From a virus, in IMG/VR virus record IMGVR_UViG_3300027881_000083, positions 1 through 23,290 of that record: DNA of 23,290 bases. One strand, 5' to 3'. A program made the translations under genes and the position numbers. Of the stretch, positions 3,779 to 23,290 are shown piece by piece (the stretch's first letter is position 1; every line of letters starts with the position of its first letter). Under the pieces are notes generated by a model. It did no database searches and was not told the DNA's origin. It saw only the letters and a list, made by a program, of their open reading frames with translations.

Positions 3779-4387
3779 ATGGCCGATCAAACAACTATCG
3801 TTAATCGAGCATTAACATTGCTCGGAGCGGAGCCAATAAATAACTTAACGGATAATACTCCGGAAGCGCAGATTGCTAACCGGGTTTATGAGGAAGCCAG
3901 AAGATCGATCCTTAGTGAATGTTTATGGAACTTTGCAACCAAACGCATTGTACTGAATCAAGTTGTAGGCACACCGGCCTGGAGCTTGGATCAAGTAAAT
4001 AATATATTTCAGCTGCCAAGCGGTATAATCCGGATCTTCGGAATATCGAGTAACGCCGCAACCTGGCGCATCGAACAGGATAAGCTGATCACAGATGTAA
4101 GCGATATAGGGATAATCTATGTATTCAACTTAACGGATACATCAAAGTTTTCTTCATCGTTTACAGATGCGTTTGCGGATAAGCTGGCTGCTGATATGTG
4201 CTATGCTATCCTCAATTCCAATACAGAAGCTAAGTTATTGCTTGAGAAGTACGATGGCGAAAGCTTGCCTAAAGCAATGAGCGAGAACTCGCAAGAGGGA
4301 ACGCCGCCGCAAGTACAAGACGATCTATGGGTTTACGCTAAGTATGGCTACACTCCGGTAAATAGATCGGGGATATTCATTGCCTAA
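3779..4387 (+). CDS. Tail tubular protein A (T7 gp11-like)
   Basis: A 202-residue protein that matches the gp11-like gatekeeper or adaptor of short-tailed phages, a ring bound under the portal that links head and tail. The N-terminus carries the family pattern: Ile-Val-Asn-Arg-Ala-Leu, then Leu-Leu-Gly-Ala-Glu-Pro-Ile, then ANRVYEEARRSILSECLWNF, in which the Tyr/Ala-Arg/Cys-Trp-Asn-Phe residues are typical. The middle and C-terminal part includes FADKLAADMCYAI and a closing Tyr/Pro stretch. Length is normal for the family (T7 gp11 is about 196 residues). An AAGGAG site stands 6 nt before the ATG. It overlaps the next gene by 8 nt and is followed by the gp12-like gene, as in T7. Confidence 0.88.
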   Translation: MADQTTIVNRALTLLGAEPINNLTDNTPEAQIANRVYEEARRSILSECLWNFATKRIVLNQVVGTPAWSLDQVNNIFQLPSGIIRIFGISSNAATWRIEQDKLITDVSDIGIIYVFNLTDTSKFSSSFTDAFADKLAADMCYAILNSNTEAKLLLEKYDGESLPKAMSENSQEGTPPQVQDDLWVYAKYGYTPVNRSGIFIA

Positions 4388-7398: not shown

Positions 7399-8973
7399 AT
7401 GGCAAAATTACCAGGATATGATTCAAGCAAAGTTATGAGTACCGAGCCATCGGTACAGATGAAAGATATGGCTCAAGAGCAGCAGATGGGCAAGAATATC
7501 CAATCTTTAGGTAAAGTTGCCAGGGATCTTGCAACTGTATGGCAAGATGCGGAAGATGCGGCCCAAACTCTTGAGGGCCAGAATAAGATTGATCTAGGCC
7601 AGGCCGATGTATTTGATCGAGCCGCAAAGGATCCGAAATATGATAACTCCGAGGAATACCACGATGATCTAGAGAAGATCAGAGAGGGATCGCTTGAGAA
7701 CTTTACCAATGACCAGGCCAGGCAGAAGTTTGCGATCACAGCAAACAATCAAACGGCAGCGGCCAGGATAAAGGTTGATGGAGTATTCCGTACAAAGTTT
7801 CAAGATCATTACAAAGGCCAGATCATTACATCGCATGAAAAGAATAAGCGAGAGTATATTTCAACCGGAGATGAAGCGGCAATGGATAAGCAGCGGCTCG
7901 CTGTTGGCATCGCTTTAGAGAAAGGCGCTGTTAGCGAGGTATTTGTTGCGAATGAAGAGGTAAAGATCCAGGATTGGAATCATCTCCGGTATCTTCAGAT
8001 GGCTCAGAATGGCCAGGTTGAGGAAGCGCTGAAGATGATTGATGAATCCGATATGCAACCATCGGAGAAAAATGCAGCCAAAGCAAGCATTATGACAATG
8101 GCCAGGCAAGGCGCTATCATCTCACAGATCGAGCAGATCAACGCAGAGCAACAGATGTTTGCTGAATCAGATGCCTTTATTGATGATCCGGATAAGAGCT
8201 ATGTTGAAAAACTTGATTTCCTTGAACAGCAAAAGAAGTTTGGCTTATCAGCAGCAGATTATACTAAATTGCTAGGATCCTTGACAAGTGCCAATAAAAT
8301 TGCCGCTGAGAGCCACGCTGAAGCCAACGCAGATATTGCATTGAGTATTGCTAGGATGGATGGCGGCATTACTCAAAAGAAAGACGGCATGAGAGATATT
8401 GGAGAATATCTTAGAAGCTTAAAGAAAACAAGAGAGTTGATAACGGATAAACACGCTCAAGGAGTTATAACCAGGGCGGAAAAAACAGATTTCATTGCGG
8501 ATCTGAATAAGATCGTTGAAGAGGAAGAGAACATTGCAACCAATAAAATAAAAAAGAAAACATTGGCTGCGCCTGGATTCGGATTATTTACATACGGCTA
8601 CGATGATGCTTATAAGGATATGCAAGAAAACCTTGAAGCTCCGGGCCTTATTGATAAAGCTTTCCTTGATTTCTATTACGAGAACATCCGGCAAAGACAA
8701 GGCCCAGGAACATTAAAGCAAGGTATGTTGGAGAAAGATCGGAAAGCATCGGTTATAAGGATCATTGACCGGTACAATGAAAAGCTAGTATCAGAGATCA
8801 AAGAAGAAATGAGGGCGAGAACAGGATTAAGACCAAAGGCGGTAACGCCGGTTGAAGAGATATTGAAGAAGAGCGGCGCAACGATGGCCAATGTAGAAGC
8901 TGCGGCAAAGAAGCATGGAGTTACAACGGATGAAGTTATTAGGAGAATGAGAGCGGAACATGGCAAACCTTGA
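7399..8973 (+). CDS. Internal virion protein, T7 gp15-like position
   Basis: A 524-residue, highly charged and mainly helical protein, long enough to form the extended helical repeats seen in T7 gp15, which is about 747 residues. It begins with a Lys-Leu-Pro-Gly-Tyr segment followed by a Gln- and Met-rich helix. Several segments look like coiled coil or helical repeats (for example NGQVEEALKMIDESDMQPSE). No lytic transglycosylase motif and no signal peptide were seen. Between the gp14-like and giant core genes, the place is that of gp15, which with gp16 builds the ejection channel across the periplasm. It overlaps the next gene by 14 nt. The family call rests mostly on position and general form. 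Confidence 0.66.
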   Translation: MAKLPGYDSSKVMSTEPSVQMKDMAQEQQMGKNIQSLGKVARDLATVWQDAEDAAQTLEGQNKIDLGQADVFDRAAKDPKYDNSEEYHDDLEKIREGSLENFTNDQARQKFAITANNQTAAARIKVDGVFRTKFQDHYKGQIITSHEKNKREYISTGDEAAMDKQRLAVGIALEKGAVSEVFVANEEVKIQDWNHLRYLQMAQNGQVEEALKMIDESDMQPSEKNAAKASIMTMARQGAIISQIEQINAEQQMFAESDAFIDDPDKSYVEKLDFLEQQKKFGLSAADYTKLLGSLTSANKIAAESHAEANADIALSIARMDGGITQKKDGMRDIGEYLRSLKKTRELITDKHAQGVITRAEKTDFIADLNKIVEEEENIATNKIKKKTLAAPGFGLFTYGYDDAYKDMQENLEAPGLIDKAFLDFYYENIRQRQGPGTLKQGMLEKDRKASVIRIIDRYNEKLVSEIKEEMRARTGLRPKAVTPVEEILKKSGATMANVEAAAKKHGVTTDEVIRRMRAEHGKP

Positions 8974-11900
8974 TCATCTATTTACGGAAACTGAAAAGAA
9001 AGATCCGGCAGTTGCAACGGCAGAGCCGGCAGAGAAGCTGGATTATCTTTTTAGCGAAGAGAACGAGTTTACAAGCGATCTCGATTATCTCTTTGATACG
9101 AATCTGAATTACGCAACCAGGAAGCCATCAGCCAGGGATATGATGCTTCAAGATGGCGAAATGAGCGTATTCTCTGAAGATGAGCGCAAAGCTTTAAGGG
9201 ATCAAGGCCCGATAGGTATCGGAGAAGCGTTTGATCGCCAGAAGAAATTGGAGCTGATCCCATTTTCTCCAACAGGCGTGATGGATGCCTGGAGTGTGCA
9301 TAGCTCAGTTACCCGGCTTCAAAAAGACGAATATGGAGATGATTGGCTTTCCCGGCAAAAGGATGAGGAGAATGTTTTGCAGTTTATGAGATCGCTGGAA
9401 GAGGAACAGATCCGGGGTTTCACATGGGGATCCAATGTGTATCGTGTAGCGAGCCAGATGCCGGCGTTTATGGTAGAGTTTATGGCAACCGGGGGGATGG
9501 CATCACTTGCCAAAAAAGGCATACAGAAAGGCGCTATAAGCGTTGCTAAAGGGGTTGCTAAAGCCGGAGCCGGGAGAATGGCCCGGAAATTGGCCAGAAC
9601 AGGGTTTAAGTACGGCGCAGAGGTATCCTTGAGAACGCCTATGATGTACAACCTTTATTGGAAAAAGTACCATGAGAATCAGATCTTTGCGAATATAGCG
9701 CTCACAGATAAAGGCGTACAGATCCTTGAAGCGCCTATGGAGAGCAAGGCCATATCGTTTGTTAGGGCCTATGGAGATGCTTTCATCGAGGTTGGATCAG
9801 AACTTTTAGGATCTAAGATATTCAAACCATCGGGCCGGATGATCGGCGGCAAGCTACAACCATTCAAAAAGGGCCTAGCAGCGAAGCTATCTCCAGAGGT
9901 TAAGGCCGGTATTACGAAGTTTATGAAATGGGTATCGGCGGATGGCAAGATCACAAGAGCTTTCCAAAAGGGCGGATTCGATGGGATCATTGAGGAAATC
10001 GGAGAGGAAGTTGTTGGCGATCAGCTGAGAGCGGCCTTTGGCGTTGAGGATTTTGGAGAGGATAACATCATCGATTCAATGAGAGCGGCTGTACCCGGAT
10101 GGGATGATCTGAGCGTTATGGCCGGAGCATTTTCGATCCCTGGCGTTACATCGTACTCCAGCCAGAGATTGTACAATAAATTGATCAAAAGAGGGGTTGA
10201 GAAGAGCAAGGCCCAGCAGATTATTGATCTAGCATCGCAAACTGATAAGGAGCGGATGCTCACAGATTTTATGAAAGAAGAGAATGAGTGGCTGAGAACG
10301 GCTGTTACAAAGGCGCTGGCTGGCGATGAGCTGACAGATGATGAGCGGTTTGGCTTAAATGAGAAGTTTTATGAGTACATGGATTCCGGAGATATTACTG
10401 TAACGGAAACGGAAGCCGGGCAGATACCGGGCCGGGAGAAAGGCGAAGTTGCTGATATTGAAAAAGCCAAAGCGATCCAGGCCGTTGAAAAGAAAAACAT
10501 CTCTTCCTTTATCGCTGAGAAGCATGAAGCTTTTAAATCCAATCTCCGGTATGTTGCATCAACAGAGCTGGCGGATGAAGTACCGGCTGATAAGGCAATG
10601 AGCGTACTGAAGAAACAGCTATCCAAAGAAGAGCTTGATTATACCGGCATTGCAGATTTCCTTAAAACCAAAACCATGTTTACCCGGCAAGAGATCATTG
10701 ATTACATCGATGCGCATAAGGTTAAGGTTGAGGTTGTTTTCAAGGGCGGCGAAGCGGAAGATCTTGAGCCATTAAGAGCGGAATCTGAAAAGATCACAAC
10801 TAGGGTTGAAGAGCTAAATAAGAAGTTTGGGGATGTTACCGGAAAAGATCTTAGGGATTATGTGTATCCGGGAATTGAAGATACTGAGCTTTATGCAGAG
10901 CTTTCAGATGAGGGCCAGGCGATATTGAATGAGCGGCAAGAGATTCTGGATAAAAGGATTGAGATAAATAGGAGATTAAAAGAAGCTTATCAGAGAGGGC
11001 AAGAAACCCGGCATGATTCCGCAAATCTTGTTTTACCCGGCGGCGAGAATTATATGGAGATCCTTGTTACATTGCCGGTTGCGGAAAAGAAAGAAAGTTT
11101 TACTGTTAAGAAGCTCGCTGGCAATTTGTTTGGAGTATATGACAAAGATGGAAATGAGTTAGCCACAGGATCAACAGAGGAGATAGCAGTTACAGCGGCT
11201 AGAAACTTGGGTAGATTAAGAACTCCTAGAGATAAATTAGGCGGAGTACCGGTACAGTTGGATGTTAATGATGAAAACAGCGATGATCTGGAGCTTGCAA
11301 CAAATAAAGATTCCGTAGAATTATCAAGAGATGGAGTTGATTATATCTTGCAATATGAATCTGGAGAGATCATATACCACAGCACACAGGGGGAGTTTCA
11401 AGCAGAGGTTGGAGTTGATCATTTTATTAACCCGGTATTAACTGATGTTGAGCAATGGCTGGTTGATAATCTTGATACCGAGGAGCTACAAGGATTCCAG
11501 GATCTCGCTCCGGCACAAACAGATGATTACAGATCTCCGCATTGGGAAGAGAAAAATGTACTCGCATGGATCCGGGTAAACTTCCGGACAGATGCCGATG
11601 GCAACAAGGTACTCTTTATCGAAGAGATGCAAAGTGATTGGCATAAAGAGGGCCGGAAGAGAGGTTATCGGAAAGAGTTGCTGAAAGAATTGCCGGATGG
11701 ATTCAGAGTGTTTAAGGATGGGGATGGATACAGGGTACATTCGCCGTTGCCGCCGCAAGGAAATAATGCGCTTGTTGCTACCGGGAGAACAGAAGAGGAA
11801 GCAACGAAAAATGCTCTTGAAGCTTTAGGCAGAGGATTCAGAGCTGAAGAAGCCGCTCCGCCAGATGCTCCATTCAAGAAATCTTGGCAAGAGCTGATGA

Positions 11901-14900
11901 TCAAGCAAGCGATCAAAACAGCTATTGATAACGGCGCAACAAAGGTTGCATGGATCAGCGGCGAGCAATCATCGGATCGGTATGGCTTAGAAAAATATCT
12001 TGAGTTTCTGCGGTATTACAAGAATGAAGATGGATCTTATGAGCTGGAGTTTATGGAAAAGGGATCTCGGTACTCACAGAGAAAACCCATAAAGGATGAA
12101 AAAGAATTAGAGGATTATGTTGGCGCAGAGAATGTTGCGAAGATGAAAGCTGGAGAGGGAGCGTTCAGCGATAAGAATGAAGATATATCGGTTGTTAAGA
12201 GAGGTAAGGCGGTAAGGATATTCCAGAAGAAATATACAGTTAAAGAAAAGATGTTTGAGTTTAAGAGGGAAGATGGCACAACCGGGAAACACAAAAGATT
12301 TATGATCCTTGTAGATGGGAAGCTTATACCTGGAGAGCAGCACGAAACAGAGAATCAAGCAAGGAACAGGATCACATGGATTGGCGCTGATCATTGGTTT
12401 GTTGAGTTTGCGGATGGAACAATAAGCACAACGCCTTTACTAGACAAACAAGCAGCCGAAGATCTTATGCGCCGGGCAAATTACCGGGTTAAGAATCCGG
12501 TTATGGAGTTATCCGGCGAGGGATTGAAAGTTGGCGGCGCAAAGCATAAAAAGTTTTATGATCAGATGCTTCCTGACATTGTTAATAAGTACATCAAGAA
12601 ATGGGGAAGCAAGGTTGAGATGATTCCAATCCAGGGTATTGCGGAATATGTATCAGCTGAAGAAGCCAGAAAAGCTTATGAATCCGGATTGGGTGTTGTT
12701 GCTGATCGCCGGGATGGATCAGATTCAGAAGTACAATCAAAGGAAGAGCTTGAAGATGAGATTGAATCCGGAAGTAATTTATGGATTGATGGTGGAGAAT
12801 ACGGCCCGAAGAAACAGATGGGTTTTGAGATTACTCCCATGATGAAGATCGAGGTTTCCGAGATCGGCCAGCCGTTATTCGGATCGAAACTTGCTGGCGG
12901 AGTTACCGGAGCGGATGCGATTGAAGTACCACAGATCGTTGAAGAGATCTTGGTTAAAGCTTTTCATGGAACAATGACGAAGTTTAAACAATTTTCAAAA
13001 GAGAAAGCCGGGATTGAGAGCGATTTTGGAGCTGGAATATATTTTAGCGATAGCGAGTACGATGTTGAAAGCAACTATGCGGATGAAGAGGGCGGCCCGG
13101 ATATGAAGCTCCGGGTTGAAGCTTTGGCTGATCGTTATGCGAATGAGATGGAAGATGATCCAAAGTATGCTCATCTATCAACTGCCGGCAAGTATGAGGT
13201 TGCCAAAGATCGAGCCAGGGAAGAGGTTGCTCCAGGCCAGGCACGAATGATCGAGGTAAAACTGAAGATCAAGAATCCGGTTATTGTTGGCGGAGAGAAA
13301 GAAACTCAGTTTACCTATGAAGAGGATTACAACGAGGAAACAGAAGAGTACGGCGAGCCAACCGGTACGCTAGTTGATTTCATCGAAGCATTTAAAGACG
13401 CAGCCAGCGGTTATGGAGATCCCGGTTATATTCAAGACGCTGTTAATAAATTATTTGAAGCCGGGATGGATCTATCAGTATCGGCTCAAGAGTTAGTTAA
13501 GATTGTCAAGAATAGCGAAGCGATGTATCTTGAGGATCCGGAAACCGGATCGCTTGCAATCAGCGAGATCATCCGGCAAACCTTTGAAGATATGGGATAC
13601 GATTCGATCATAGATCACACAGTAGATCAGAAGTTTCAAAATATGCCCAATATCCAGGGCGCAACGCATTACATCGTATTCGATCCTAATATGGTTGAGA
13701 TGGTTGATACCGGCCTTGATGAGCCAACAACGAAAAAGGGCAGAGCTGATAAGTACCGGGAGATGGCGGAGCGGATCTCTGAGATCGTTAAATCAAAGGA
13801 AGATCTTAAAGACAAGAAATCCCAGGCCAGAGAGATGCTTGATTTCTTTAAAGAAGAGCGGATGCAATGGAAGAATAAGATCCAGCGGTACGATGATGGC
13901 GTTATGGATGAAGAGTTTAATGAGCTTCCGGTATATTACCGGGCCAAAGATGGCCAGAAGCTTGATAGCGCAGCAAGCGAAGCTAAGAATGATGCCAACA
14001 GCTCTTTCCAGGGCGAGGGCGATATGGAGTTTAGGGATTTTCTGATCCAGCTGGAGAGCGATTACCAGAGGGCAAAAGATGAGCTTAAAGATATTAACGA
14101 CCAGATCCGCATGGAAGCTGAGAAGAAAGAGATCCAGAGTGAGATCTCTTCCTTACGACAGCGATTATCTGATTTTAAAGCTGGCATTGCAGAAGCAACT
14201 AAGGAAGCAAAGGCGATGTTTAAAACAAAGGTCGCTCAAGATAAGCAGATTGCTAGGGAAGAGAAGAAGCTCCTGGATGCGGCAAAGGCGGAAGTTAAGC
14301 GCACAGCTAGATCTTTATTGCCGGCCCAGGGTAAGAGATATTTCAACAAGATCATTACGGCGATTGATTCCGTTAAAAAGGTTGAGGATGCGCCAGCTGC
14401 CATTGCGATCATCGTTGATAACTATGAGCAGTATTTAGATCGATGGGCCAGGGCGAAAGCGGTTAAGCAGATCTTAAAGAAGTACAAACGGCCACAAAAT
14501 GTATTGGATGTTAAATACCGGGAGCAGATCAAATCGATCTTATCTCAATACGGCGAGAAGAGAGCGGAGCAGCGCAAAGCTCTAAGCCAGATGAATACCG
14601 ATGAGCTGGTTGATCTAGCCAGGGAAGTATCCCTGTTAATTGAAGAGGGCAAACTATCTCTGGCCCGGAAGAATGAGATGAAGATCATGGCAAGCGAGAT
14701 CATGCGTGGAGCCGGGATCGTTGCAGCCGGCGGAAGAGTTGATATTGAAGCCATTGGATCCTTAGAAGAGATCCGTAAAGCCGGATTGAATCCTATGAAA
14801 CAAAAGGCGCTCAAGTGGAAATATGGATTTGCAAGGCCGCTGAGAATGATCCGATCCATCTTTGGAAAGTACGGCGAGAGAATGTTTTATGATGTGATCG

Positions 14901-16699
14901 AGAAAGCTGAAACATTAGCGCAGCATTTAAAGATCAAGCGCCTTACCCGGATGGATGAGGTAATGAAAAAGCATAATGTTAAAACATTCGATCTCGGCAA
15001 AACAGTAACCATTGATGGCCACACATTCCAGGTTAATAACATTATGACAATGTTGGCGCAGCAGAACAACAAAGAGGGCCGGGCCGCCATTATTCATGGT
15101 AATAAGATAAGCGAGGAAACCTATGAAAAGTTTATCTCCTATCTCAAAAAGGAATATCCCGGAGCGGCGGCGGCAGTTTCAGAGATCAAGGTTATTGTTG
15201 GGGAGAGATACGAAGATCTGCGGAAAACTATGGCGGATTCATTTAATGTATCTCTGGCCAAAGTGGATGATTATTTCCCTATATCGAGGGCGAGGTTTGA
15301 CCGGAAAGATGAAAAGGATCCGGATGCGATAATGGGGATGGATGTTGTTGGCGAAGCCGTAATGAAAAAAGGGCATGGCGTTAATTATACGGCGGTTGAA
15401 AAAGGATTATCTATAACCCGGAAACAGATCTCAGATCGTAATCAGCTTCCGATCAGCTTAAACTTTATGGAAGATGCGGCCAGGGCCATTGACAGCCAGG
15501 AGCATCTGATCCATTTCGCCGGAATCCAGAAGATGTATAACACAACCAAAACGGATAAGGATCTCCGGGATGCGGTTGTTTACAATCATGGGATGCAAGC
15601 TTGGGAAAGTTTTGATAAGTGGATGAATGAAGCGATCAATCCACGCATCGGGTATCAAGGATTAGGAACATTCGGGCAGATGGCGAAACAGGCCCGGAGA
15701 TCTTTGGGCGTATTCTATTTAGGGTTTAATGTTATTACGGCTATGAAGCAGTTTCCATCAGCACATCTGGCCCTTAAATATACATCGTTTGGGCAACTTT
15801 ACAAAAGCATGGCAAAGGTATTCGATCCAGCTCTTCAAAAGAAGATCATGGAATTGGATCCATCAATCGCACATAGGATCGTTGAGCGTGAAATTGGGGA
15901 GATCATGCAAGGAGCCAGCAAATTAAATCAAAATGATTTTCTCCGGCAAGCTCAATTAGCGGAGCAATGGCTCGGACAGAAATCAATGAAAATGATCCTA
16001 AATATGGATCGCTGGGCCGTTATGAGTGTGTTTGATGCGGTGTATGAGAGCAATAAAAAAGAGCTTGGCCATGATGCAGCGGTTAATCTCGCTCACAAAG
16101 CATTGCTTGAAACGCAGCCACAGGGCCGCCGCATCGATCTCCCGGAAGAATACCGGAGCAATGATCAGCTATGGCGCATGATGTTGATGTTCACTAACCA
16201 GCTGAATCAGATTTACAATATGATGGCGTTTGATGCCACGACAGAATGGAAAGGCGGCCAGAAGAAAGAAGCCATGATAACTATCGCATCGATCATGCTA
16301 TCCAATCTGATGATCTATGGCGTATCACATGGCGGATGGGATTGGCCAGAAGATGAAGAAGAGCAATGGAAAGCATGGGTTGAAGCCACGATGGGATCAG
16401 CAATTTCTTCAATACCTATTGCCGGTAACTTGGCCATGAGCGCAATAAGAGGTTATTCGCCGCAGCTTTTGGTTGCCGGATCGGTTATTGATAACTACGC
16501 ATGGAATGTTAAAAAGTTTCAAAATGAAGAGTATGCGCAAGCAACTTTTGATATAATGGTAGATACAGCTGTACTTGCTGGCGTTAAAATACCTTACGGC
16601 GCTATAAAAAGATCTATCAAGGGAATCAAGGATGTTAGCGAGGGAGAAACCGAAGATTTAAGAAGATTGATCTGGAGCAAATCGGCTCTGTACGAATAA
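8960..16699 (+). CDS. Giant internal virion (ejection) protein with polyvalent and ADP-ribosyltransferase-like domains
   Basis: A 2579-residue protein, about twice the length of T7 gp16, starting inside the previous gene with a distant AGGAG (8941-8945). Residues 1-45 hold three LD[HY]LF repeats. Residues about 150-400 are partly hydrophobic and carry GFDGIIEEIGEEVVGDQLRA, a motif of large phage core proteins. Residues about 859-1311 match a polyvalent-protein module: SPHWEEKNVLAW, FIEEMQSDWHKEGRKRGY, PFKKSWQELMIKQAIKTA, LKVGGAKHKKFYDQMLP and QPLFGSKL, the last near the PLxRFG motif. Residues about 1333-1584 resemble an ART-PolyVal ADP-ribosyltransferase: KAFHGTMTKF (His1336), FGAGIYFSD (Tyr1361) and a terminal YIVFDP strand. 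Residues about 1588-1915 are coiled coil. Hydrophobic helices lie at about 2439-2500, as expected for a membrane channel. No lytic transglycosylase was seen. Ejection is known for gp16; ART activity is inferred. Confidence 0.8.
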   Translation: MANLDHLFTETEKKDPAVATAEPAEKLDYLFSEENEFTSDLDYLFDTNLNYATRKPSARDMMLQDGEMSVFSEDERKALRDQGPIGIGEAFDRQKKLELIPFSPTGVMDAWSVHSSVTRLQKDEYGDDWLSRQKDEENVLQFMRSLEEEQIRGFTWGSNVYRVASQMPAFMVEFMATGGMASLAKKGIQKGAISVAKGVAKAGAGRMARKLARTGFKYGAEVSLRTPMMYNLYWKKYHENQIFANIALTDKGVQILEAPMESKAISFVRAYGDAFIEVGSELLGSKIFKPSGRMIGGKLQPFKKGLAAKLSPEVKAGITKFMKWVSADGKITRAFQKGGFDGIIEEIGEEVVGDQLRAAFGVEDFGEDNIIDSMRAAVPGWDDLSVMAGAFSIPGVTSYSSQRLYNKLIKRGVEKSKAQQIIDLASQTDKERMLTDFMKEENEWLRTAVTKALAGDELTDDERFGLNEKFYEYMDSGDITVTETEAGQIPGREKGEVADIEKAKAIQAVEKKNISSFIAEKHEAFKSNLRYVASTELADEVPADKAMSVLKKQLSKEELDYTGIADFLKTKTMFTRQEIIDYIDAHKVKVEVVFKGGEAEDLEPLRAESEKITTRVEELNKKFGDVTGKDLRDYVYPGIEDTELYAELSDEGQAILNERQEILDKRIEINRRLKEAYQRGQETRHDSANLVLPGGENYMEILVTLPVAEKKESFTVKKLAGNLFGVYDKDGNELATGSTEEIAVTAARNLGRLRTPRDKLGGVPVQLDVNDENSDDLELATNKDSVELSRDGVDYILQYESGEIIYHSTQGEFQAEVGVDHFINPVLTDVEQWLVDNLDTEELQGFQDLAPAQTDDYRSPHWEEKNVLAWIRVNFRTDADGNKVLFIEEMQSDWHKEGRKRGYRKELLKELPDGFRVFKDGDGYRVHSPLPPQGNNALVATGRTEEEATKNALEALGRGFRAEEAAPPDAPFKKSWQELMIKQAIKTAIDNGATKVAWISGEQSSDRYGLEKYLEFLRYYKNEDGSYELEFMEKGSRYSQRKPIKDEKELEDYVGAENVAKMKAGEGAFSDKNEDISVVKRGKAVRIFQKKYTVKEKMFEFKREDGTTGKHKRFMILVDGKLIPGEQHETENQARNRITWIGADHWFVEFADGTISTTPLLDKQAAEDLMRRANYRVKNPVMELSGEGLKVGGAKHKKFYDQMLPDIVNKYIKKWGSKVEMIPIQGIAEYVSAEEARKAYESGLGVVADRRDGSDSEVQSKEELEDEIESGSNLWIDGGEYGPKKQMGFEITPMMKIEVSEIGQPLFGSKLAGGVTGADAIEVPQIVEEILVKAFHGTMTKFKQFSKEKAGIESDFGAGIYFSDSEYDVESNYADEEGGPDMKLRVEALADRYANEMEDDPKYAHLSTAGKYEVAKDRAREEVAPGQARMIEVKLKIKNPVIVGGEKETQFTYEEDYNEETEEYGEPTGTLVDFIEAFKDAASGYGDPGYIQDAVNKLFEAGMDLSVSAQELVKIVKNSEAMYLEDPETGSLAISEIIRQTFEDMGYDSIIDHTVDQKFQNMPNIQGATHYIVFDPNMVEMVDTGLDEPTTKKGRADKYREMAERISEIVKSKEDLKDKKSQAREMLDFFKEERMQWKNKIQRYDDGVMDEEFNELPVYYRAKDGQKLDSAASEAKNDANSSFQGEGDMEFRDFLIQLESDYQRAKDELKDINDQIRMEAEKKEIQSEISSLRQRLSDFKAGIAEATKEAKAMFKTKVAQDKQIAREEKKLLDAAKAEVKRTARSLLPAQGKRYFNKIITAIDSVKKVEDAPAAIAIIVDNYEQYLDRWARAKAVKQILKKYKRPQNVLDVKYREQIKSILSQYGEKRAEQRKALSQMNTDELVDLAREVSLLIEEGKLSLARKNEMKIMASEIMRGAGIVAAGGRVDIEAIGSLEEIRKAGLNPMKQKALKWKYGFARPLRMIRSIFGKYGERMFYDVIEKAETLAQHLKIKRLTRMDEVMKKHNVKTFDLGKTVTIDGHTFQVNNIMTMLAQQNNKEGRAAIIHGNKISEETYEKFISYLKKEYPGAAAAVSEIKVIVGERYEDLRKTMADSFNVSLAKVDDYFPISRARFDRKDEKDPDAIMGMDVVGEAVMKKGHGVNYTAVEKGLSITRKQISDRNQLPISLNFMEDAARAIDSQEHLIHFAGIQKMYNTTKTDKDLRDAVVYNHGMQAWESFDKWMNEAINPRIGYQGLGTFGQMAKQARRSLGVFYLGFNVITAMKQFPSAHLALKYTSFGQLYKSMAKVFDPALQKKIMELDPSIAHRIVEREIGEIMQGASKLNQNDFLRQAQLAEQWLGQKSMKMILNMDRWAVMSVFDAVYESNKKELGHDAAVNLAHKALLETQPQGRRIDLPEEYRSNDQLWRMMLMFTNQLNQIYNMMAFDATTEWKGGQKKEAMITIASIMLSNLMIYGVSHGGWDWPEDEEEQWKAWVEATMGSAISSIPIAGNLAMSAIRGYSPQLLVAGSVIDNYAWNVKKFQNEEYAQATFDIMVDTAVLAGVKIPYGAIKRSIKGIKDVSEGETEDLRRLIWSKSALYE

Positions 16700-16712
16700 A
16701 AGGAGAAATATA

Positions 16713-19595
16713 ATGACAGTAACTAATACATCAAGCAAACAAGCCGCTCAAGCAATGGATGGAGTTGCAACTCAATTCTTCTTTACATTCCAGGCGTTGC
16801 CGGAGAAGCCAGAGGGCATATTAGCATCGATAGTTGATACCACAACCGACATTCAAACTGATCTTATCTACAACGATGGCGGCGTTGATGGATATACAGT
16901 ATCAGTTGATGATGATGGGGATGGCGGATCGATCACAGTAAACGATGCGAGATCAGCTGATTATGAATTAACAATTTTCCGGGAGTATGAAGAGTTACAG
17001 GAAACAAACTATGCGGATTACAATGCTTTCCCGGCGGAAACAGTTGAAGATAACCAGGATCTCTTAACATTTATTACGCAGCAGCTTTCAGAAACGCTAT
17101 CGAGAGCTATGGTTTTACCGATTACTGTTACCGGAGTTGATACAACATTGCCTGTACCGGAAGCCGGAGCGCCTATCGGATGGAATGATACAGCGGATGG
17201 CCTTACCAACAACCCGGATCTTATCAATCAAGTACAAATTGATACTGCGGCAAACCCGGATTATATTGGCGCTGGCGCTGGCGATGGAGTGTTGAGAACA
17301 GGAGCCGGGATAACCTATACTGATGGCGGAGATTTCGTTACTCTTACAGCGGATCCATCGACCATTGATCACGATGCTCTGCTCAATTTCGTGGCCCTTG
17401 AGCATATTGATCATAGCGCTGTATCAGTTATTGCTGGCACAGGATTGAGCGGCGGCGGAACAATACAAACGGATCGCACTTTAGATGTATCAGCTGATTA
17501 TGCAGTTATTACAGCCAACGATGGCGCAACAGATGTTACGGCAGTTGAGCTAGAAACCTTAACGGATGGATCCAATGCCGATGCGCTTCATGTTCACGCT
17601 AGTATCACAAACGATCAAGTTAAAGTTGATGCAGCGGCAACAAGAGATTACATCGGAGCAACGGCAGCGGATGGAGTTATCCGAGCCGGAAGCTCAATAG
17701 CGGTTGCAGATGGCGGAGATTTTATAACGCTAACTGTTAGCGAGGGTAATGTTGATCACGATTCACTATTGAATTATGTTGCTAACGATCATGTGGATCA
17801 TAGCACAGTTGATATTGCAACGGCTGTTAATACATCTGGCCTGGCCGGCGGCGGAGATATAACGGCAACGAGAAACCTTGTGGTTGATATTCCTAATACC
17901 ACAGCCGGAACAGTAGCATCGCTTGATGAGGTATTGATTGCTGATGTTGATGATGCGGATAATCTAAAGAGAGTAACGGCTCAATCCATTGCCGATCTAG
18001 GCGCTGGCGGCGGAGCGGTAGCAATAGAAGATGAGGGAGTGCCGCTTACAGCAGCAGTTTCTCTAATTGATTTCGTTGGAGCCGGAGTAACGGCAACCAA
18101 TGTTGGGAGCGTTGTAACAGTTACGATCCCTGGCGGTGGTGGCGGAGCAACGCTTGAGCTGGATGTTACCCAGGGCAACGCTTTTTCTGTTGGAGAATGG
18201 ATCTATCACAACGGCACAATTTATGTTTTGGCCGATGCTTCAGCGCCGGGTACAGCGGAATCTATTGGCGTTGTTACGGCAGCAACCGGAGCAGATTTCA
18301 CAGTACAATTCGGCGGCAGAATAACCGGCCTTTCTGGATTGACAGCCGGGGAAGCTCACTTTTTATCTGAAACAGCTGGAGCGATCACAGCCACAGCGCC
18401 ATCAACAGAGGGCGCAGTTATTAAACCGGTACTGATCGCAGATAGCACAACAACCGGATTCATCTTTAATATGCGAGGGATCGGAGTTACCAGCACAACT
18501 TCTTTCTATCAAACATTCCAAAATGCAGCCGGCTTAACTCCGCAATTCACACATAATCTAGGGCATAAGTATTGCATCGTACAAGTTTACGATAACAATG
18601 ACGATCTTATCCAGCCAGATGATATTACTCTGGATGATAATGATAATTTAACAGTTGATCTTACTTCTTACGGAACACGCACAGGCGATTGGAATGTTGT
18701 TATCTTGGATATTGGTACAACGGCAACCAATGGATCAACCTTGCAATCGGCTTTTGATAATGGCCGGACAATATCAAATAGCTCAACAGCAACAGGAATT
18801 ACTTTAACGCAAGCAGCGGCATTGGCAGCAAGCCAATGGGCCTTTTATCTTTATACTAGCGTTAATCAAGTAAATGGAGCAGAGTTATTTCGGGTTTGGA
18901 ATAATGGTACAGGATCAACTGATAATGCGGCTCAAATAAGAAATGATGGAACAGGATCAACATTATTACTTACAAACGCATCATCAACGCAACTCGCAAC
19001 CGGCAAGCATCTTCTTCATGTTACAGATGGAGCCGGGGTAGCGCATACCAACGCTGATTCCGCTTTTGTAAAGATCCAATCGGATCATGCCGGAACAACG
19101 GAGCCAGCTCTTGAGATTGCACAAACCGGATCCGGCCCGGCGCTTCAAATGAACGCTCCGATGATTAACTCAGGGCAACCTGCGTTTTGTGTTGGTTGTG
19201 AACTTATGACAAACCTTATTGTTGGAACAACAACTATTAAGTTTAGTAATGCTCGGTTCAATAGAGGAAGCCATTTTAATACAGGGACGTATACGTTTAC
19301 TGCACCCGTAACAGGGTTGTATAAGTTTGATGTAATGTTTATGCTTTATCAAGTTGATTCTAGTGCTACATATTTTGATTTAAACCTTGAAACCACAGCA
19401 AAGAGGTATTGGACAAGATTGGACCCAAATGGTCTTGACCAAGATTTAACATTGGGATTTCCGTTGCATATAAATATACTAGCGGATATGACAGCCGCCG
19501 ATACGGCGTATGTTACATATTTTCAATCAGGTGGAGCAGCACAATCAGATACAGCCGTAAATGAAAGTTGGTTTAGCGGATTCTTAGTCGCATAA
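16713..19595 (+). CDS. Tail fibre protein with T7 gp17-like N-terminus and C1q-like C-terminal head
   Basis: A 960-residue fibre, started by a strong AAAAGGAG site. Residues 1-140 match the T7 gp17 N-terminal domain that fixes the fibre to the tail: an early Phe-Phe-Phe-Thr-Phe strand, a TIFREYEELQETNYADYNAF segment, and FITQQLSETLSRAMVLP. Two repeats of about 90 residues follow (173-259 and 302-393), each with DHD[AS]LLN[FY]VA, [IV]DHS and GL[SA]GGG motifs. Residues about 395-595 are Gly/Thr/Val-rich beta linkers. Residues about 597-673 contain THNLGHKYCIVQVYDNN and a Pro-Asp-Asp turn. Residues about 675-820 begin with LQSAFDNGRTI and are repeat-like. Residues about 822-960 are a C1q/TNF-like head (QPAF, FTAPVTGLYKFD, YWTRLDPNG, SGFLVA). 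It should bind the receptor; the receptor is unknown. The head segment differs in base composition. Confidence 0.88.
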   Translation: MTVTNTSSKQAAQAMDGVATQFFFTFQALPEKPEGILASIVDTTTDIQTDLIYNDGGVDGYTVSVDDDGDGGSITVNDARSADYELTIFREYEELQETNYADYNAFPAETVEDNQDLLTFITQQLSETLSRAMVLPITVTGVDTTLPVPEAGAPIGWNDTADGLTNNPDLINQVQIDTAANPDYIGAGAGDGVLRTGAGITYTDGGDFVTLTADPSTIDHDALLNFVALEHIDHSAVSVIAGTGLSGGGTIQTDRTLDVSADYAVITANDGATDVTAVELETLTDGSNADALHVHASITNDQVKVDAAATRDYIGATAADGVIRAGSSIAVADGGDFITLTVSEGNVDHDSLLNYVANDHVDHSTVDIATAVNTSGLAGGGDITATRNLVVDIPNTTAGTVASLDEVLIADVDDADNLKRVTAQSIADLGAGGGAVAIEDEGVPLTAAVSLIDFVGAGVTATNVGSVVTVTIPGGGGGATLELDVTQGNAFSVGEWIYHNGTIYVLADASAPGTAESIGVVTAATGADFTVQFGGRITGLSGLTAGEAHFLSETAGAITATAPSTEGAVIKPVLIADSTTTGFIFNMRGIGVTSTTSFYQTFQNAAGLTPQFTHNLGHKYCIVQVYDNNDDLIQPDDITLDDNDNLTVDLTSYGTRTGDWNVVILDIGTTATNGSTLQSAFDNGRTISNSSTATGITLTQAAALAASQWAFYLYTSVNQVNGAELFRVWNNGTGSTDNAAQIRNDGTGSTLLLTNASSTQLATGKHLLHVTDGAGVAHTNADSAFVKIQSDHAGTTEPALEIAQTGSGPALQMNAPMINSGQPAFCVGCELMTNLIVGTTTIKFSNARFNRGSHFNTGTYTFTAPVTGLYKFDVMFMLYQVDSSATYFDLNLETTAKRYWTRLDPNGLDQDLTLGFPLHINILADMTAADTAYVTYFQSGGAAQSDTAVNESWFSGFLVA
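17229..17891 (+). repeat. Two imperfect repeats in the tail fibre shaft
   Basis: Copy A spans 17229-17489 and copy B 17616-17891 of the fibre gene. Both begin Gln-Val-[QK]-[IV]-Asp, share DYIGA, DGV[LI]R, DGGDF[VI]TLT, DHD[AS]LLN[FY]VA and [IV]DHS, and end with GL[SA]GGG followed by Arg-[TN]-Leu. They are diverged at the DNA level, so the duplication is old or the two were shuffled in separately. Such modules recur in phage fibres and probably form trimeric shaft segments. Confidence 0.8.
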
Positions 19596-19609
19596 AAAGG
19601 AGATCAATT

Positions 19610-20101
19610 ATGAAAGAGGGAAATGTTGATGGACAAGGGCAGCAAACATTGGCTAAACAGCCAGCTTTCGGAGCTACATTTTCAACAGATCAAGTAAACA
19701 TATTGCCCGGCACATCTGTCGCAACATTTTTTGATGTAGCTACCTATGACACTACCGGAGATTATGATACAGTAAATTATAGATACGAAGTTCCTGTTAC
19801 CGGGTTTTATCAAATCAATATGACAGTTCTTCTTGCGAATGTTGATACAGCAGCGAATTACTATGCAATATATGTAGGTACTTCCTTGGGATTTCCTTTA
19901 GCGGCAAGCATAGATCCTACAAAGTATTCTGCTGATGTATCTTGGCTTCCTGTTTGCTTATCCGGCGTGCTATATGCAGCAGTCGGAGAAACAATAAGAG
20001 GTACATATCTTCAAAATGGGGGAGCGGCACAAACAGATATTTTGAAAGATGGAAATGCTGGGGGATTCGGCTCGTACTTTTCAGGTATCTTAATAGCATA
20101 A
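19610..20101 (+). CDS. Free-standing C1q-like head protein
   Basis: A 163-residue protein that consists almost wholly of a C1q/TNF-like jelly-roll module, with a short polar N-terminal stretch of about 16 residues before QPAF. Landmarks shared with the fibre head are VPVTGFYQINM, the Asp-Pro at the SIDPTKY segment, NGGAAQTDI and the closing SGILIA. A strong AAAAGGAG site precedes the ATG. It carries no anchoring domain, signal peptide or membrane segment, so it must join the virion through another protein, or be secreted by lysis. C1q-like modules usually form trimers, so it could mix with, cap or replace the fibre head; this is inference. The gene is real by its coding pattern, ribosome site and homology to its neighbours. 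Confidence 0.78.
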   Translation: MKEGNVDGQGQQTLAKQPAFGATFSTDQVNILPGTSVATFFDVATYDTTGDYDTVNYRYEVPVTGFYQINMTVLLANVDTAANYYAIYVGTSLGFPLAASIDPTKYSADVSWLPVCLSGVLYAAVGETIRGTYLQNGGAAQTDILKDGNAGGFGSYFSGILIA

Positions 20102-20113
20102 AGGAGAAACATT

Positions 20114-20938
20114 ATGGGAAACTCAGCGATCACAGGAATCAATCTAGGTGTACCGGCCTATATCCAAACATTCGATAGTGGCGATGGCGCATCGGTTGCC
20201 TTGAATCATAATCTTAACAGCCAATATGTTTCGGTAACTGTTTATGATAATACCGGAAAGATCATTATCCCGGATGATGTAACGGCCACAAGTACCACAG
20301 TTGCCACGCTGGATATGACAAGTTACAATCCTGTTAGCGGAACATGGCGAGCCGTTGTTGTTGATACCGGAGCAACCGCATATATAGATGGCAATGTAAT
20401 TACATCATCTGGAATAATAACAGATAATGCAGTACCAAGAGGGGATGGCGGATCAAGAGGGGTACAAGATAGTACGCTTTTAATCAGCGATAATAATGAA
20501 GTTACCAACGCTAATCAGCCGGCGTTTCTTGCAAGAAACAATGCGGCGCAGAACAATATGGCAGTTGGCTCTTCCGTTGATATTGTTTTTGGAGCAGAAG
20601 TTTTTGATAGAGGGAGCAATTTTGCTTCCAATGTTTTTACCGCTCCTGTTACCGGGCTATATCATTTAGAGTTTTCTCTAAATCTAACAAACATAGATTC
20701 AGCAGCAACAAGTTATAATATCCAGATATTCACAACGGCCAGATCTTATAGGTTTGTTTTAGATCCAAGACAGTTTGCGGGAGATATTGTTGGTAAATAT
20801 GCTATTAGCAATTCTGTTTTAGCTGATATGACAGCTACCGATACCGCAAAGATAACTTTTGATCAGGCCGGCGGATCTGCACAAACAGATATTGTGGATA
20901 ATAACGATGCAACATTTTCTGGATATTTGGTAGCATAA
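20114..20938 (+). CDS. Short tail fibre-like protein with C1q-like head
   Basis: A 274-residue protein that resembles a shortened copy of the distal fibre. Residues about 15-90 match fibre residues about 597-673: NHNL, then VSVTVYDN, I-I-P-D-D-V, a [ML]TSY segment and Gly-x-Trp-x-x-Val-Val. Residues about 90-130 are a linker with TDNAVPRGDGGS and VQDSTLLISDNN, a pattern common in phage fibres. Residues 135-274 are the third C1q-like head (QPAF, TAPVTGLYHLEF, VLDPRQF, GGSAQTDI, SGYLVA). It lacks the gp17-like tail-binding domain. AAAGGAG stands before the ATG. It may be a second receptor-binding protein attached to another fibre part, or a tip protein; the sequence does not say which. Confidence 0.78.
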   Translation: MGNSAITGINLGVPAYIQTFDSGDGASVALNHNLNSQYVSVTVYDNTGKIIIPDDVTATSTTVATLDMTSYNPVSGTWRAVVVDTGATAYIDGNVITSSGIITDNAVPRGDGGSRGVQDSTLLISDNNEVTNANQPAFLARNNAAQNNMAVGSSVDIVFGAEVFDRGSNFASNVFTAPVTGLYHLEFSLNLTNIDSAATSYNIQIFTTARSYRFVLDPRQFAGDIVGKYAISNSVLADMTATDTAKITFDQAGGSAQTDIVDNNDATFSGYLVA

Positions 20939-20951
20939 AAAGGAGATCATT

Positions 20952-21365
20952 ATGGTTAAAGTAGGAGATTTAACAAAAACAAATCTATCAGTAACTTCTC
21001 CATCGCCGTATCTTGGCAGCTTTCAAAGAGATATGACGGCTGCAAGCGGAGATCAAGAAATAGATATTGGGTTCAAACCTAACTTGATTATATTTAGCTG
21101 GGGGATAGATGGTTCTCCTGATTCAAGGAGAGGGATTAGTTTTGTGCAAGGAACCACAAGAGGGTATTACTCTATTTTCCCTGGATCTATGAGTTTTACG
21201 AAAGCACAAACAAGCGGAAATTATATTATAGCGTACGAAACCGGCTCAATACTTCAAGCCGGGGATCCTATTGTTTCTGATGATGATGGGTTTACTGTAA
21301 CTTGGACAAAAATAGGCGCTACTTCCGCCGGAACATTGTTTATAAACTTTGTAGCATTTCAGTAA
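20952..21365 (+). CDS. Putative tail tip or tail fibre-associated protein
   Basis: A 137-residue protein in the fibre cluster with a strong AAAAGGAG site. It is beta-rich and contains a GFKPNLIIFSWGIDG strand and ends DDGFTVTW, ATSAGTLFINFVAFQ. This GFKP...DGF...FVAF layout is seen in C-terminal domains of many phage tail fibre or tail-tip proteins. It is not a C1q module and has no QPAF motif. It probably takes part in receptor binding or caps a fibre; the exact family was not identified. Its leader closely resembles that of the free-standing C1q gene, so the gene may have joined this array by the same kind of exchange. Confidence 0.6.
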   Translation: MVKVGDLTKTNLSVTSPSPYLGSFQRDMTAASGDQEIDIGFKPNLIIFSWGIDGSPDSRRGISFVQGTTRGYYSIFPGSMSFTKAQTSGNYIIAYETGSILQAGDPIVSDDDGFTVTWTKIGATSAGTLFINFVAFQ

Positions 21366-21397
21366 ACATAAAAACCCTTATTAAAAGGAGATAGCAG

Positions 21398-21847
21398 ATG
21401 AAAGATTTACTTATTAAAGCACAGGGCCTAGTGGATGATTTAAACCGGGAGCTTTCAGAAGCAAAGCAAGCCAACGCTGAAGCTAACCAGGCAGCAGCAA
21501 GCGCAAGGATCCTAAAGAATAGTTTGGATGCTCAATCGATAGAGCTTGCGGATCGGGAAATATCGCTTGCACAAGGCGAGAAGCCGATCAAAGCGGCGGT
21601 GGAAGCCAGGCGGATAAGCGGAGAGAATGTATTATTATCCGGGAAGATCGAGGAATCAAGGCAAGATCTTGAGAATAAGAAGAGAGAGTTTGCGGCGGAT
21701 ATTGCAAAGCAGAGAGCGGATCTGAAGTTGGAACAGGATGAGGTTGCTAATACAAGGGCCAATTTTAAGGTACAGGCGGATGCTTTAAAGGACAAGGAAA
21801 AGAAACTTGAGGAAAAACTTAAAGCATTAGGGTTGAAACTAGCGTAA
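21398..21847 (+). CDS. Coiled-coil hypothetical protein
   Basis: A 149-residue protein, almost wholly charged and helical, with heptad-like spacing over most of its length (for example ESRQDLENKKREFAADIAKQ). The AAAAGGAG site at about 21384 supports the ATG start. It has no signal peptide, lipobox or membrane segment, so it is not an obvious spanin. The family was not recognised. It may be a structural rod or a fibre chaperone, given its place after the fibre genes, but no motif shows this. Its TAA overlaps the next ATG by one base (TAATG), suggesting coupled translation. Confidence 0.68.
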   Translation: MKDLLIKAQGLVDDLNRELSEAKQANAEANQAAASARILKNSLDAQSIELADREISLAQGEKPIKAAVEARRISGENVLLSGKIEESRQDLENKKREFAADIAKQRADLKLEQDEVANTRANFKVQADALKDKEKKLEEKLKALGLKLA

Positions 21848-22167
21848 TGGGCCAGATACTCACAAACAGCCAGAGAATAAAGCTTACCAGGGATGGAACA
21901 GCTGATTTTCAATCCATCCGGGATGATAACGGAGTTGATCCGGAATACCATGCCTTTATGACCTTTGGCCGGCAATCGGATGGCGAGCAAGCTGTTTATA
22001 TGATCGTTAAGATTGATGATCCATCCGGAGAATCAGTTTTAACTTATCACTTTAATTGGAACAGCGCAAAGGCCGGAGCCGTTGAGTTTGAAACGGCCTG
22101 GACAAACCGGGCAGCATTAACCTATGTACGATATGATAAAGTATTATTGGAGTTTTTTACAGCATGA
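21847..22167 (+). CDS. Hypothetical protein, likely virion-associated
   Basis: A 106-residue protein of unrecognised family, starting at an ATG that shares one base with the previous stop, so translation is probably coupled. It has alternating polar and hydrophobic residues that suggest beta strands (QAVYMIVKIDD, VLTYHFNW) and a hydrophobic end (KVLLEFFTA). No signal peptide, cysteine or catalytic motif is seen. It overlaps the next gene by 4 nt (ATGA). It sits between fibre genes and another structural-type gene, so a tail-associated role is possible, but nothing in the sequence proves it. Confidence 0.6.
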   Translation: MGQILTNSQRIKLTRDGTADFQSIRDDNGVDPEYHAFMTFGRQSDGEQAVYMIVKIDDPSGESVLTYHFNWNSAKAGAVEFETAWTNRAALTYVRYDKVLLEFFTA

Positions 22168-22574
22168 CAGTTGAGCTAAGAAGAGTTGTATCACAGCCGC
22201 CGGTAACAGGAACGCCGTTAGATCCGCTATATGTGGTTGTGCAAGGGATCTCGATCATCACTTTTAACAAGCCGGGATCTGTTGCGGCGGTAGCGCCATC
22301 TGTAAAAACAACTATTGTTTCTCAAGTTTATGTGGCCAGCACGATTGAAAATGTGCCATTGATTTCAGTATCCGGTACGAATTATGCAAAATGGTTTTTT
22401 GCGATCAACGGATCAGATATTGACATACGGCGTACCGGGCCGGATCTCAACCTTGATTTTAACTTTACCGGCGCTCCATTCTCTTTAACACCGGGGGATG
22501 TTGTGGATGTTAAGGTTGAACACTTTAACGCTGGCGCAGAAGATTTTGAAGCCACGATATATGGATACGCATAA
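22164..22574 (+). CDS. Hypothetical beta-rich protein
   Basis: A 136-residue protein, family not recognised. Its C-terminal 90 residues look like a small beta sandwich: TIENVPLISVSGTNYAKWFF, a GPDLNLDFNF strand, then LTPGDVVDVKVEHFN and a final EATIYGYA strand. Such folds are common in phage tail accessory proteins. The start overlaps the previous stop by 4 nt and the TAA shares one base with the next ATG. No signal peptide or membrane segment. A structural role is a guess from composition and place. Confidence 0.6.
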   Translation: MTVELRRVVSQPPVTGTPLDPLYVVVQGISIITFNKPGSVAAVAPSVKTTIVSQVYVASTIENVPLISVSGTNYAKWFFAINGSDIDIRRTGPDLNLDFNFTGAPFSLTPGDVVDVKVEHFNAGAEDFEATIYGYA

Positions 22575-22837
22575 TGGCTGATATGGGGATGCACTTAGTA
22601 CCGGCGGATAATACAGCAAAGCTGTATGATCTTGAGATGCTGCTGGAGAGCAAGAAATCCCAGCTGGTACGCATAGAGCAAGATATTAAGGATATTACAA
22701 ACATCGCTCTAAAGGCGAAAGAGCGAGAGCGGCACATGACGAGTAAGGATATTGAAGAATGTAAGCGCAAGATTGCATTGCTTCAGAAAATAAAAATGCA
22801 ATCAAACGATGAAATCATAGATGTAACAAACAAGTAA
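22574..22837 (+). CDS. Small helical hypothetical protein
   Basis: An 87-residue charged helical protein that probably forms one long coiled coil (LYDLEMLLESKKSQLVRIEQ). The ATG shares one base with the stop before it and no strong ribosome site precedes it, so expression is likely coupled. No transmembrane segment is seen, which argues against a holin. The family was not recognised. With the 149-residue coiled-coil protein it flanks two beta-rich proteins in an overlapping four-gene unit. Confidence 0.58.
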   Translation: MADMGMHLVPADNTAKLYDLEMLLESKKSQLVRIEQDIKDITNIALKAKERERHMTSKDIEECKRKIALLQKIKMQSNDEIIDVTNK

Positions 22838-22849
22838 AGGAGAAATAAA

Positions 22850-23290
22850 ATGGCAGATTCGGCTTTCAAAACCCAGGTATCGAAAGATGAAAACGCCAAC
22901 GCAGTAACTAATCAAATGTTTGTGCAGCTTACAGATGGCACAAGCGGCGTTACAGTTACCGGTAACAAGTTGGATGTAAACGCATCAGTAACACTTGAAA
23001 CGGCCTATGTCGATGATAGCGCTTTCACTATCGGCACAGATAAGGTTAATGCTCAAGGTTTTCTTGCGGATGAAACAGCAACGGATTCTGTTGATGAGGG
23101 CGATATTGGTTTAGCTCGCATGACACTTGATCGCCGCATGATCACATCATCGGAACAATCCGGAACATGGGATATTGGCACAGTAACAACTTTGACAGGC
23201 ATTACCAATGATGTAAACATCGCTGATGGTGGAAACACGATCACAGTAGATGGAACAGTTGCAGCAACCCAATCGGGTACATGGAACATC
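22850..23290 (+). CDS. Repeat-containing phage structural protein, N-terminal part
   Basis: This gene runs off the window end; 147 codons are visible and the frame is open throughout. It starts at an ATG after AAAGGAG. The N-terminal part has FTIGTDKVNAQGFLADETAT and GLARMTLDRRMIT, a pattern seen in phage structural proteins that carry many short repeats. Two QSGTW[DN]I units occur at 23156-23176 and 23270-23290, 38 residues apart, with Thr-Val and Asp-Gly rich strands between, suggesting a repetitive beta structure that continues past the window. It probably is a further tail or head fibre component. The product name is inferred. Confidence 0.62.
   Translation, partial: MADSAFKTQVSKDENANAVTNQMFVQLTDGTSGVTVTGNKLDVNASVTLETAYVDDSAFTIGTDKVNAQGFLADETATDSVDEGDIGLARMTLDRRMITSSEQSGTWDIGTVTTLTGITNDVNIADGGNTITVDGTVAATQSGTWNI

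Follow-up and report, generated by a model that had tools for sequence, protein, structure and literature searches.

A putative receptor-binding cassette with exchangeable adhesin heads in the tail module of an HTVC010P-like podovirus

The distal tail fibre gene of an uncultured podovirus and the three small genes that follow it appear to form a receptor-binding cassette with exchangeable adhesin heads, a reading to which we assign a probability of roughly 0.6. Such a cassette would comprise at least four slots in one operon, each consisting of a conserved N-terminal mount followed by an exchangeable C-terminal head. The mounts would be of two kinds: an 85-residue connector in the fibre and in ORF3, and short starts of the MxxG[DN] type in ORF2 and ORF4. 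Each product is most likely a homotrimeric adhesin. On the tail, either the fibre head or the separate heads would be on display, and the surfaces open to the phage would depend on the set of heads it carries. A switch of host range could then come from recombination where mount and head meet, with the tail-binding part left unchanged. The features are listed in Table 1.

Table 1. Features of the putative cassette and its downstream flank (window coordinates).
Feature	Position	Strand	Description
Tail fibre, slot A	16713..19595	+	960 aa: tail-binding region aa 1-136, shaft, connector, C1q head
Fibre connector domain	18465..18722	+	aa 585-670, connector HMM; last part common with L084
C1q head A, fibre C terminus	19167..19592	+	aa 819-960, PF00386 and head HMM
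ORF2, slot B	19610..20101	+	163 aa: short N terminus MKEGNVDG..., C1q head B at residues 15-163
ORF3, slot C	20114..20938	+	274 aa: connector aa 1-88, C1q head aa 132-274
ORF3 connector domain	20114..20377	+	kept in L084 and L086; paralogous to fibre connector
C1q head C	20510..20935	+	head pLDDT 92-98; Z 16.1 to Caprin-2 C1q
ORF4, slot D	20952..21365	+	137 aa: short N terminus MVKVGDL..., beta-sandwich head of "GFKP" type
Conserved flank	21365..22837	+	coiled-coil protein and 106-, 136- and 87-aa proteins; L084 homology resumes, 57-89% aa identity

The window, by which we mean the whole stretch of DNA analysed, corresponds to a full IMG/VR record (23,290 bases). It comes from an uncultured contig, is an incomplete genome, and represents the structural half of a podovirus: part of the portal, the major head protein, tail tubular proteins A and B, internal virion proteins, the fibre, and the run of small genes. 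What kind of phage is this? Its tail tubular protein B shows 34-39% identity to that of the Pelagibacter phages HTVC010P, HTVC034P, and their relatives, and the phage is an HTVC010P-like podovirus. Its G+C content is 45%, against 32-34% in the HTVC010P-type pelagiphages compared, so the host is probably not Pelagibacter. Outside the cassette, a single 2,579-aa internal virion protein (8960-16699) takes up one third of the window, its middle part being poorly conserved at the DNA level in L084, and residues 119-180 of tail tubular protein B (4380-6839) give a near-threshold match to PF16190 (E1_FCCH).

Do the heads really belong to the C1q family? The preliminary description of this DNA had placed three C1q-like modules at the C termini of the fibre, ORF2, and ORF3, and profile and pairwise scores find them there. 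Searching the window with the ORF3 head returns exactly the other two, at 43% (E=1e-27) and 33% (E=2e-15) identity. Pairwise alignment scores among the three top all 500 shuffles (z 21-41); in the same test, ORF4 shows no similarity to any of them (z about 0). A head HMM trained on 91 heads from other contigs and on no window sequence detects ORF3 (5e-47), the fibre (6e-38), and ORF2 (4e-29). With the Pfam C1q model PF00386, the fibre passes the cutoff (E=1e-8), while ORF3 (5e-4) and ORF2 (0.97) fall below it. A 72-row profile headed by ORF3 picks up C1q chains of known structure (5kca, E=3e-21), and the AlphaFold2 model of ORF3 superposes on Caprin-2 C1q with a Z score of 16.1 and an rmsd of 2.2 over 125 residues. 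The top Foldseek row for ORF3 is a cyanophage A4 portal-tail chain (9k09_A), for which the two-domain superposition has an rmsd of 33. The ORF3 model thus has the fold that had been proposed, no C terminus of the three was placed in a different one, and the fibre and ORF2 heads are assigned by sequence, ORF3 being the one of the three that was modelled. A C1q/TNF-fold head forms the C terminus of each of the three proteins. As had been reported, all three share QPAF, [LI]DP, GG[AS]AQ[ST]D, and SG[FIY]L[VI]A; a further pattern, [TP]xPVTG[LF]Y, was slightly off, as ORF2 reads EVPVTGFY. Two of the heads do sit on separate short proteins, although ORF3 is a connector domain plus a head rather than a bare head.

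Could the three heads simply be copies of one another? They were described as tandem, and they do stand three in a row. They do not look like recent copies, however: the ORF3 head shares 58% of its residues with a head from an unrelated contig, more than with either of its window neighbours. A simple duplication in tandem of a single fibre head, serving no particular purpose, would explain three related heads in a row and agrees with the AU test, which does not reject a clade of the three. That reading is nonetheless highly improbable, given the 58% match elsewhere against 42% and 32% to the neighbours, and given that the slots occupied by the heads differ between sister genomes (described below). 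A tree of 95 heads is too poorly resolved to establish a single-duplication origin, and because of this poor resolution and the retained clade, we do not claim that the window heads were acquired independently.

C1q heads occur on long fibre-like proteins, on proteins of 300-400 aa, and on short proteins of 160-180 aa. The initial scans with heads and fibres yielded 81 loci, and in at least 18 of these the retrieved stretch encodes more than one C1q protein. A scan of viral contigs with the three-row head alignment gave 351 matches; the same kind of scan with the patterns of the ORF3 head alone found no relative, and ORF3 had no match among phage records. Positions 16700-22900 of this incomplete genome contain no near-identical long repeats of the DGR template/variable type.

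That the heads are exchangeable is indicated by two sister contigs, L084 and L086, the only two found with an ORF3-type mount, so that the slot comparison covers three genomes. L084 is close to the window (81% identity over fibre residues 1-670 and 83% in tail tubular protein B); L086 is more distant, with tail tubular protein B about 29-35% identical. The run of the fibre and small downstream genes is common to all three, and in the window an AAGGAG-like ribosome-binding site precedes each cassette gene, with intergenic gaps of 12-14 bases. By blastn, homology between the window and L084 spans 14561-18721 and breaks off within the fibre where its connector ends. Between 18721 and 21365, only 20101-20376, the ORF3 connector, is conserved, and homology is back at 21365. 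Along ORF3 itself, identity to L084 is 67-90% in the connector and 13-40% in the head.

Which heads sit on which mounts? In slot A, the window fibre ends in a C1q head, the L084 fibre in a head of another, non-C1q kind, and the L086 fibre in none: it is 546 aa long, has its connector at 460-545, and stops at GTWNLIVIG. Slot B holds a C1q head in the window and in L084 and a non-C1q head in L086. Slot C holds C1q in the window, a diverged C1q in L084, and the GFKP type in L086. Slot D holds the GFKP type in the window and in L086, and the ORF4 counterpart in L084 carries a C1q head. Across four slots and three genomes, the N-terminal mounts are thus kept while the heads are of at least three types, and the same type can fill different slots in related phages. 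Slots B and D, whose shared starts are short and weakly conserved, are equated mainly by gene order. The third head type unites the L084 fibre head with the head in slot B of L086 on a pairwise match of E=0.004 only, and may be two types. The modular system suspected earlier is therefore visible as heads exchanged on conserved mounts, and in the window phage its role is probably receptor binding. The ORF3 mount is 69% identical between the window and L086, against about 29-35% for the tail tubular proteins, which suggests transfer of the mount-head unit itself from phage to phage.

Two parts of the cassette had been missed before: the ORF3 connector, and ORF4 as a fourth slot with an unrelated head. 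The GFKP-type head family of ORF4 was found at 15 loci. No family is assigned to ORF4 from its fold, as the model has a pLDDT of 81 and its matches are weak, the best being a Klebsiella phage baseplate entry (Z 7.5), followed by T4 gp9 (7.0). ORF2 matches phrog_15750 (1.6e-6) and has an AAGGAG ribosome-binding site upstream. At the other end of the cassette, fibre residues 1-136 match phrog_1640, annotated as a tail protein (E=5e-11). The fibre is 26% identical to HTVC010P gp22, and the Pfam T7 fibre model gave no match to it.

The ORF3 connector is 80% identical in amino acids to that of L084, 69% to that of L086, and about 32% to the domain that the connector HMM also finds in the fibre at residues 585-670. 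A scan of genome contigs with the fibre connector region returned one weak shaft match only. The ORF3 mount has a dN/dS of about 0.2, and this purifying selection argues that ORF3 is an expressed, functional protein. One could suppose that ORF2 and ORF3 are instead a store of reserve heads, acting only by recombining into the fibre gene, and heads are indeed exchanged between relatives. It is scarcely credible that they do nothing else, with frames intact, ribosome-binding sites present, and a mount conserved under purifying selection. The DNA coding for the window heads also reaches no more than 72% and 61% over the best 72 nt, a divergence beyond what ordinary homologous recombination tolerates, and cultured relatives have fibres without a C1q head together with separate heads.

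Where on the virion would the small proteins dock? In the main rival to the exchangeable cassette, the small proteins would be successive trimeric beads or a cap, stacked end to end on the fibre connector, and the last one alone would bind the receptor. The fibre and ORF3 connectors are paralogous, the L086 fibre stops at its connector, and there is a precedent in the gp82-gp81-gp80 neck fibre of phage A-1(L), in which trimeric gp81 beads, separate proteins, dock via N-terminal hairpins (PMC10966104). We still consider this stacking unlikely, as all four heads vary between sisters where inner beads would be expected to stay constant, and ORF2 and ORF4 carry no connector. Alternatively, the small proteins might serve as head fibres on the capsid or neck. 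The ORF3 connector does have a weak match to a PHROG family whose annotation is virion structural, head and packaging, and marine viral contigs commonly encode short C1q proteins next to proteins of several different architectures. Against this, the tail fibre itself has the same connector and the small genes come directly after it, which leaves a place on the head distinctly improbable.

A bolder form of the cassette reading can be offered tentatively, and we think it more doubtful than the basic one. Here the four slots would form a turret displaying several adhesins at once on conserved docking tags that accept unrelated head folds, a fibre could work headless because its heads would come from separate proteins, and phages would retool by swapping heads between slots and genomes. 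It is conceivable that the small heads cap the fibre head or form mixed trimers with it, as the preliminary description suggested, since the chains of mammalian C1q assemble as a heterotrimer although their identity is modest; the data here do not favour mixed trimers over homotrimers. Why would such a layout matter? In the annotation of many abundant marine phages, receptor-binding proteins appear as hypothetical, and a constant mount with interchangeable heads would give a rule for finding them. It would also predict where recombination changes host range, and it would open to testing whether a small podovirus shows more than one adhesin at a time and whether a headless fibre can be served by separate C1q heads.

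Heads with the C1q fold are found on both fibres and spikes of phages. Among systems with separate tips, the small gp38 protein of T-even phages is the receptor-binding tip of the fibre and is not known to have the C1q fold; we set it beside the cassette for its way of working and not for any similarity of sequence or fold. A structural relative is the short fibre of the Anabaena phage A-1(L), whose stem and cell-wall-binding domain bind host cells (PMC10966104). The ORF3 head model matches that cell-wall-binding domain (gp33; 8ke9) with a Z score of 13.8 (143 residues), and that domain lies distally on a trimeric host-binding fibre, as the window head may; A-1(L), however, is a myophage with one fibre protein, and identity is 14%. 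The branched tailspikes of Ackermannviridae likewise bring several receptor-binding proteins from neighbouring genes together on one virion (PMC11414711). Neither a T4gp10-like branching domain nor a tailspike beta-helix was matched by Pfam in the window fibre or in ORF2-ORF4.

The preliminary description did not know of this arrangement as a described one, a statement that has to be revised: a short C1q gene beside the fibre was reported in 2014, and pelagiphages in culture encode as many as four C1q proteins. Mizuno et al. described, in metaviromic islands, a hypervariable C1q gene adjoining an HTVC010P-like fibre as a putative receptor-binding protein, the binding apparently being inferred from variability; the C1q head under-recruits metavirome reads and the N-terminal end does not (PMC3909814). 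Those phages resemble the window phage in having a related tail module, a C1q gene near the fibre, and a conserved N terminus with a variable head. They differ in that their C1q genes lie beside the fibre, whereas the window fibre is itself also C1q headed, and in that the window cassette fills several slots, with other head types replacing C1q in the same slot. A variable C1q gene also lies downstream of the fibre in a cryoconite Mu-like phage (PMC7468147). The arrangement is not new in kind. Multislot exchange of unrelated heads on conserved mounts and a connector common to the fibre and ORF3 are the parts for which we found no description in the open-access literature searched, and a search for virion proteomics or binding data on the window phage or its sisters found none.

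As mentioned, cultured pelagiphages also have C1q-headed proteins downstream of the fibre: four in HTVC115P (gp57, gp58, gp59, and gp64), two in HTVC203P (gp41 and gp42), two in HTVC019P, and one in HTVC010P (gp27, the domain continuing into gp28). In the deposited HTVC010P record, the domain is split between gp27 and gp28 (L089, 19876-20699), as if by a frameshift or sequencing error. Unlike the window fibre, their fibres lack a C1q head and have an ALAIALG-like end, and their mounts mostly belong to other types (MAYIG/MPFIG, for instance) rather than being the window connector. Fibres or fibre-adjacent proteins without a C1q head in these cultured phages end in a common short sequence resembling ALAIALG or AIAMAIAL (L089, 18002-18538; L122, 2338-3720; L123, 2334-3809; L121, 890-3148), and this tail is perhaps a docking site for separate heads. 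Another family of short proteins also lies downstream of the fibre: HTVC010P gp30, gp31, and gp32 and three HTVC019P genes are tandem paralogues with 47-57% identity (L089, 21026-22984; L123, 6855-8690). Finally, small XkdW-like or similar short genes stand between head genes (L084, 12064-12351; L089, 19579-19872 and 20708-21022; L122, 5432-5761). The one in L084 matches PF09636 (E=1.5e-16), and these small genes may encode dedicated assembly factors.
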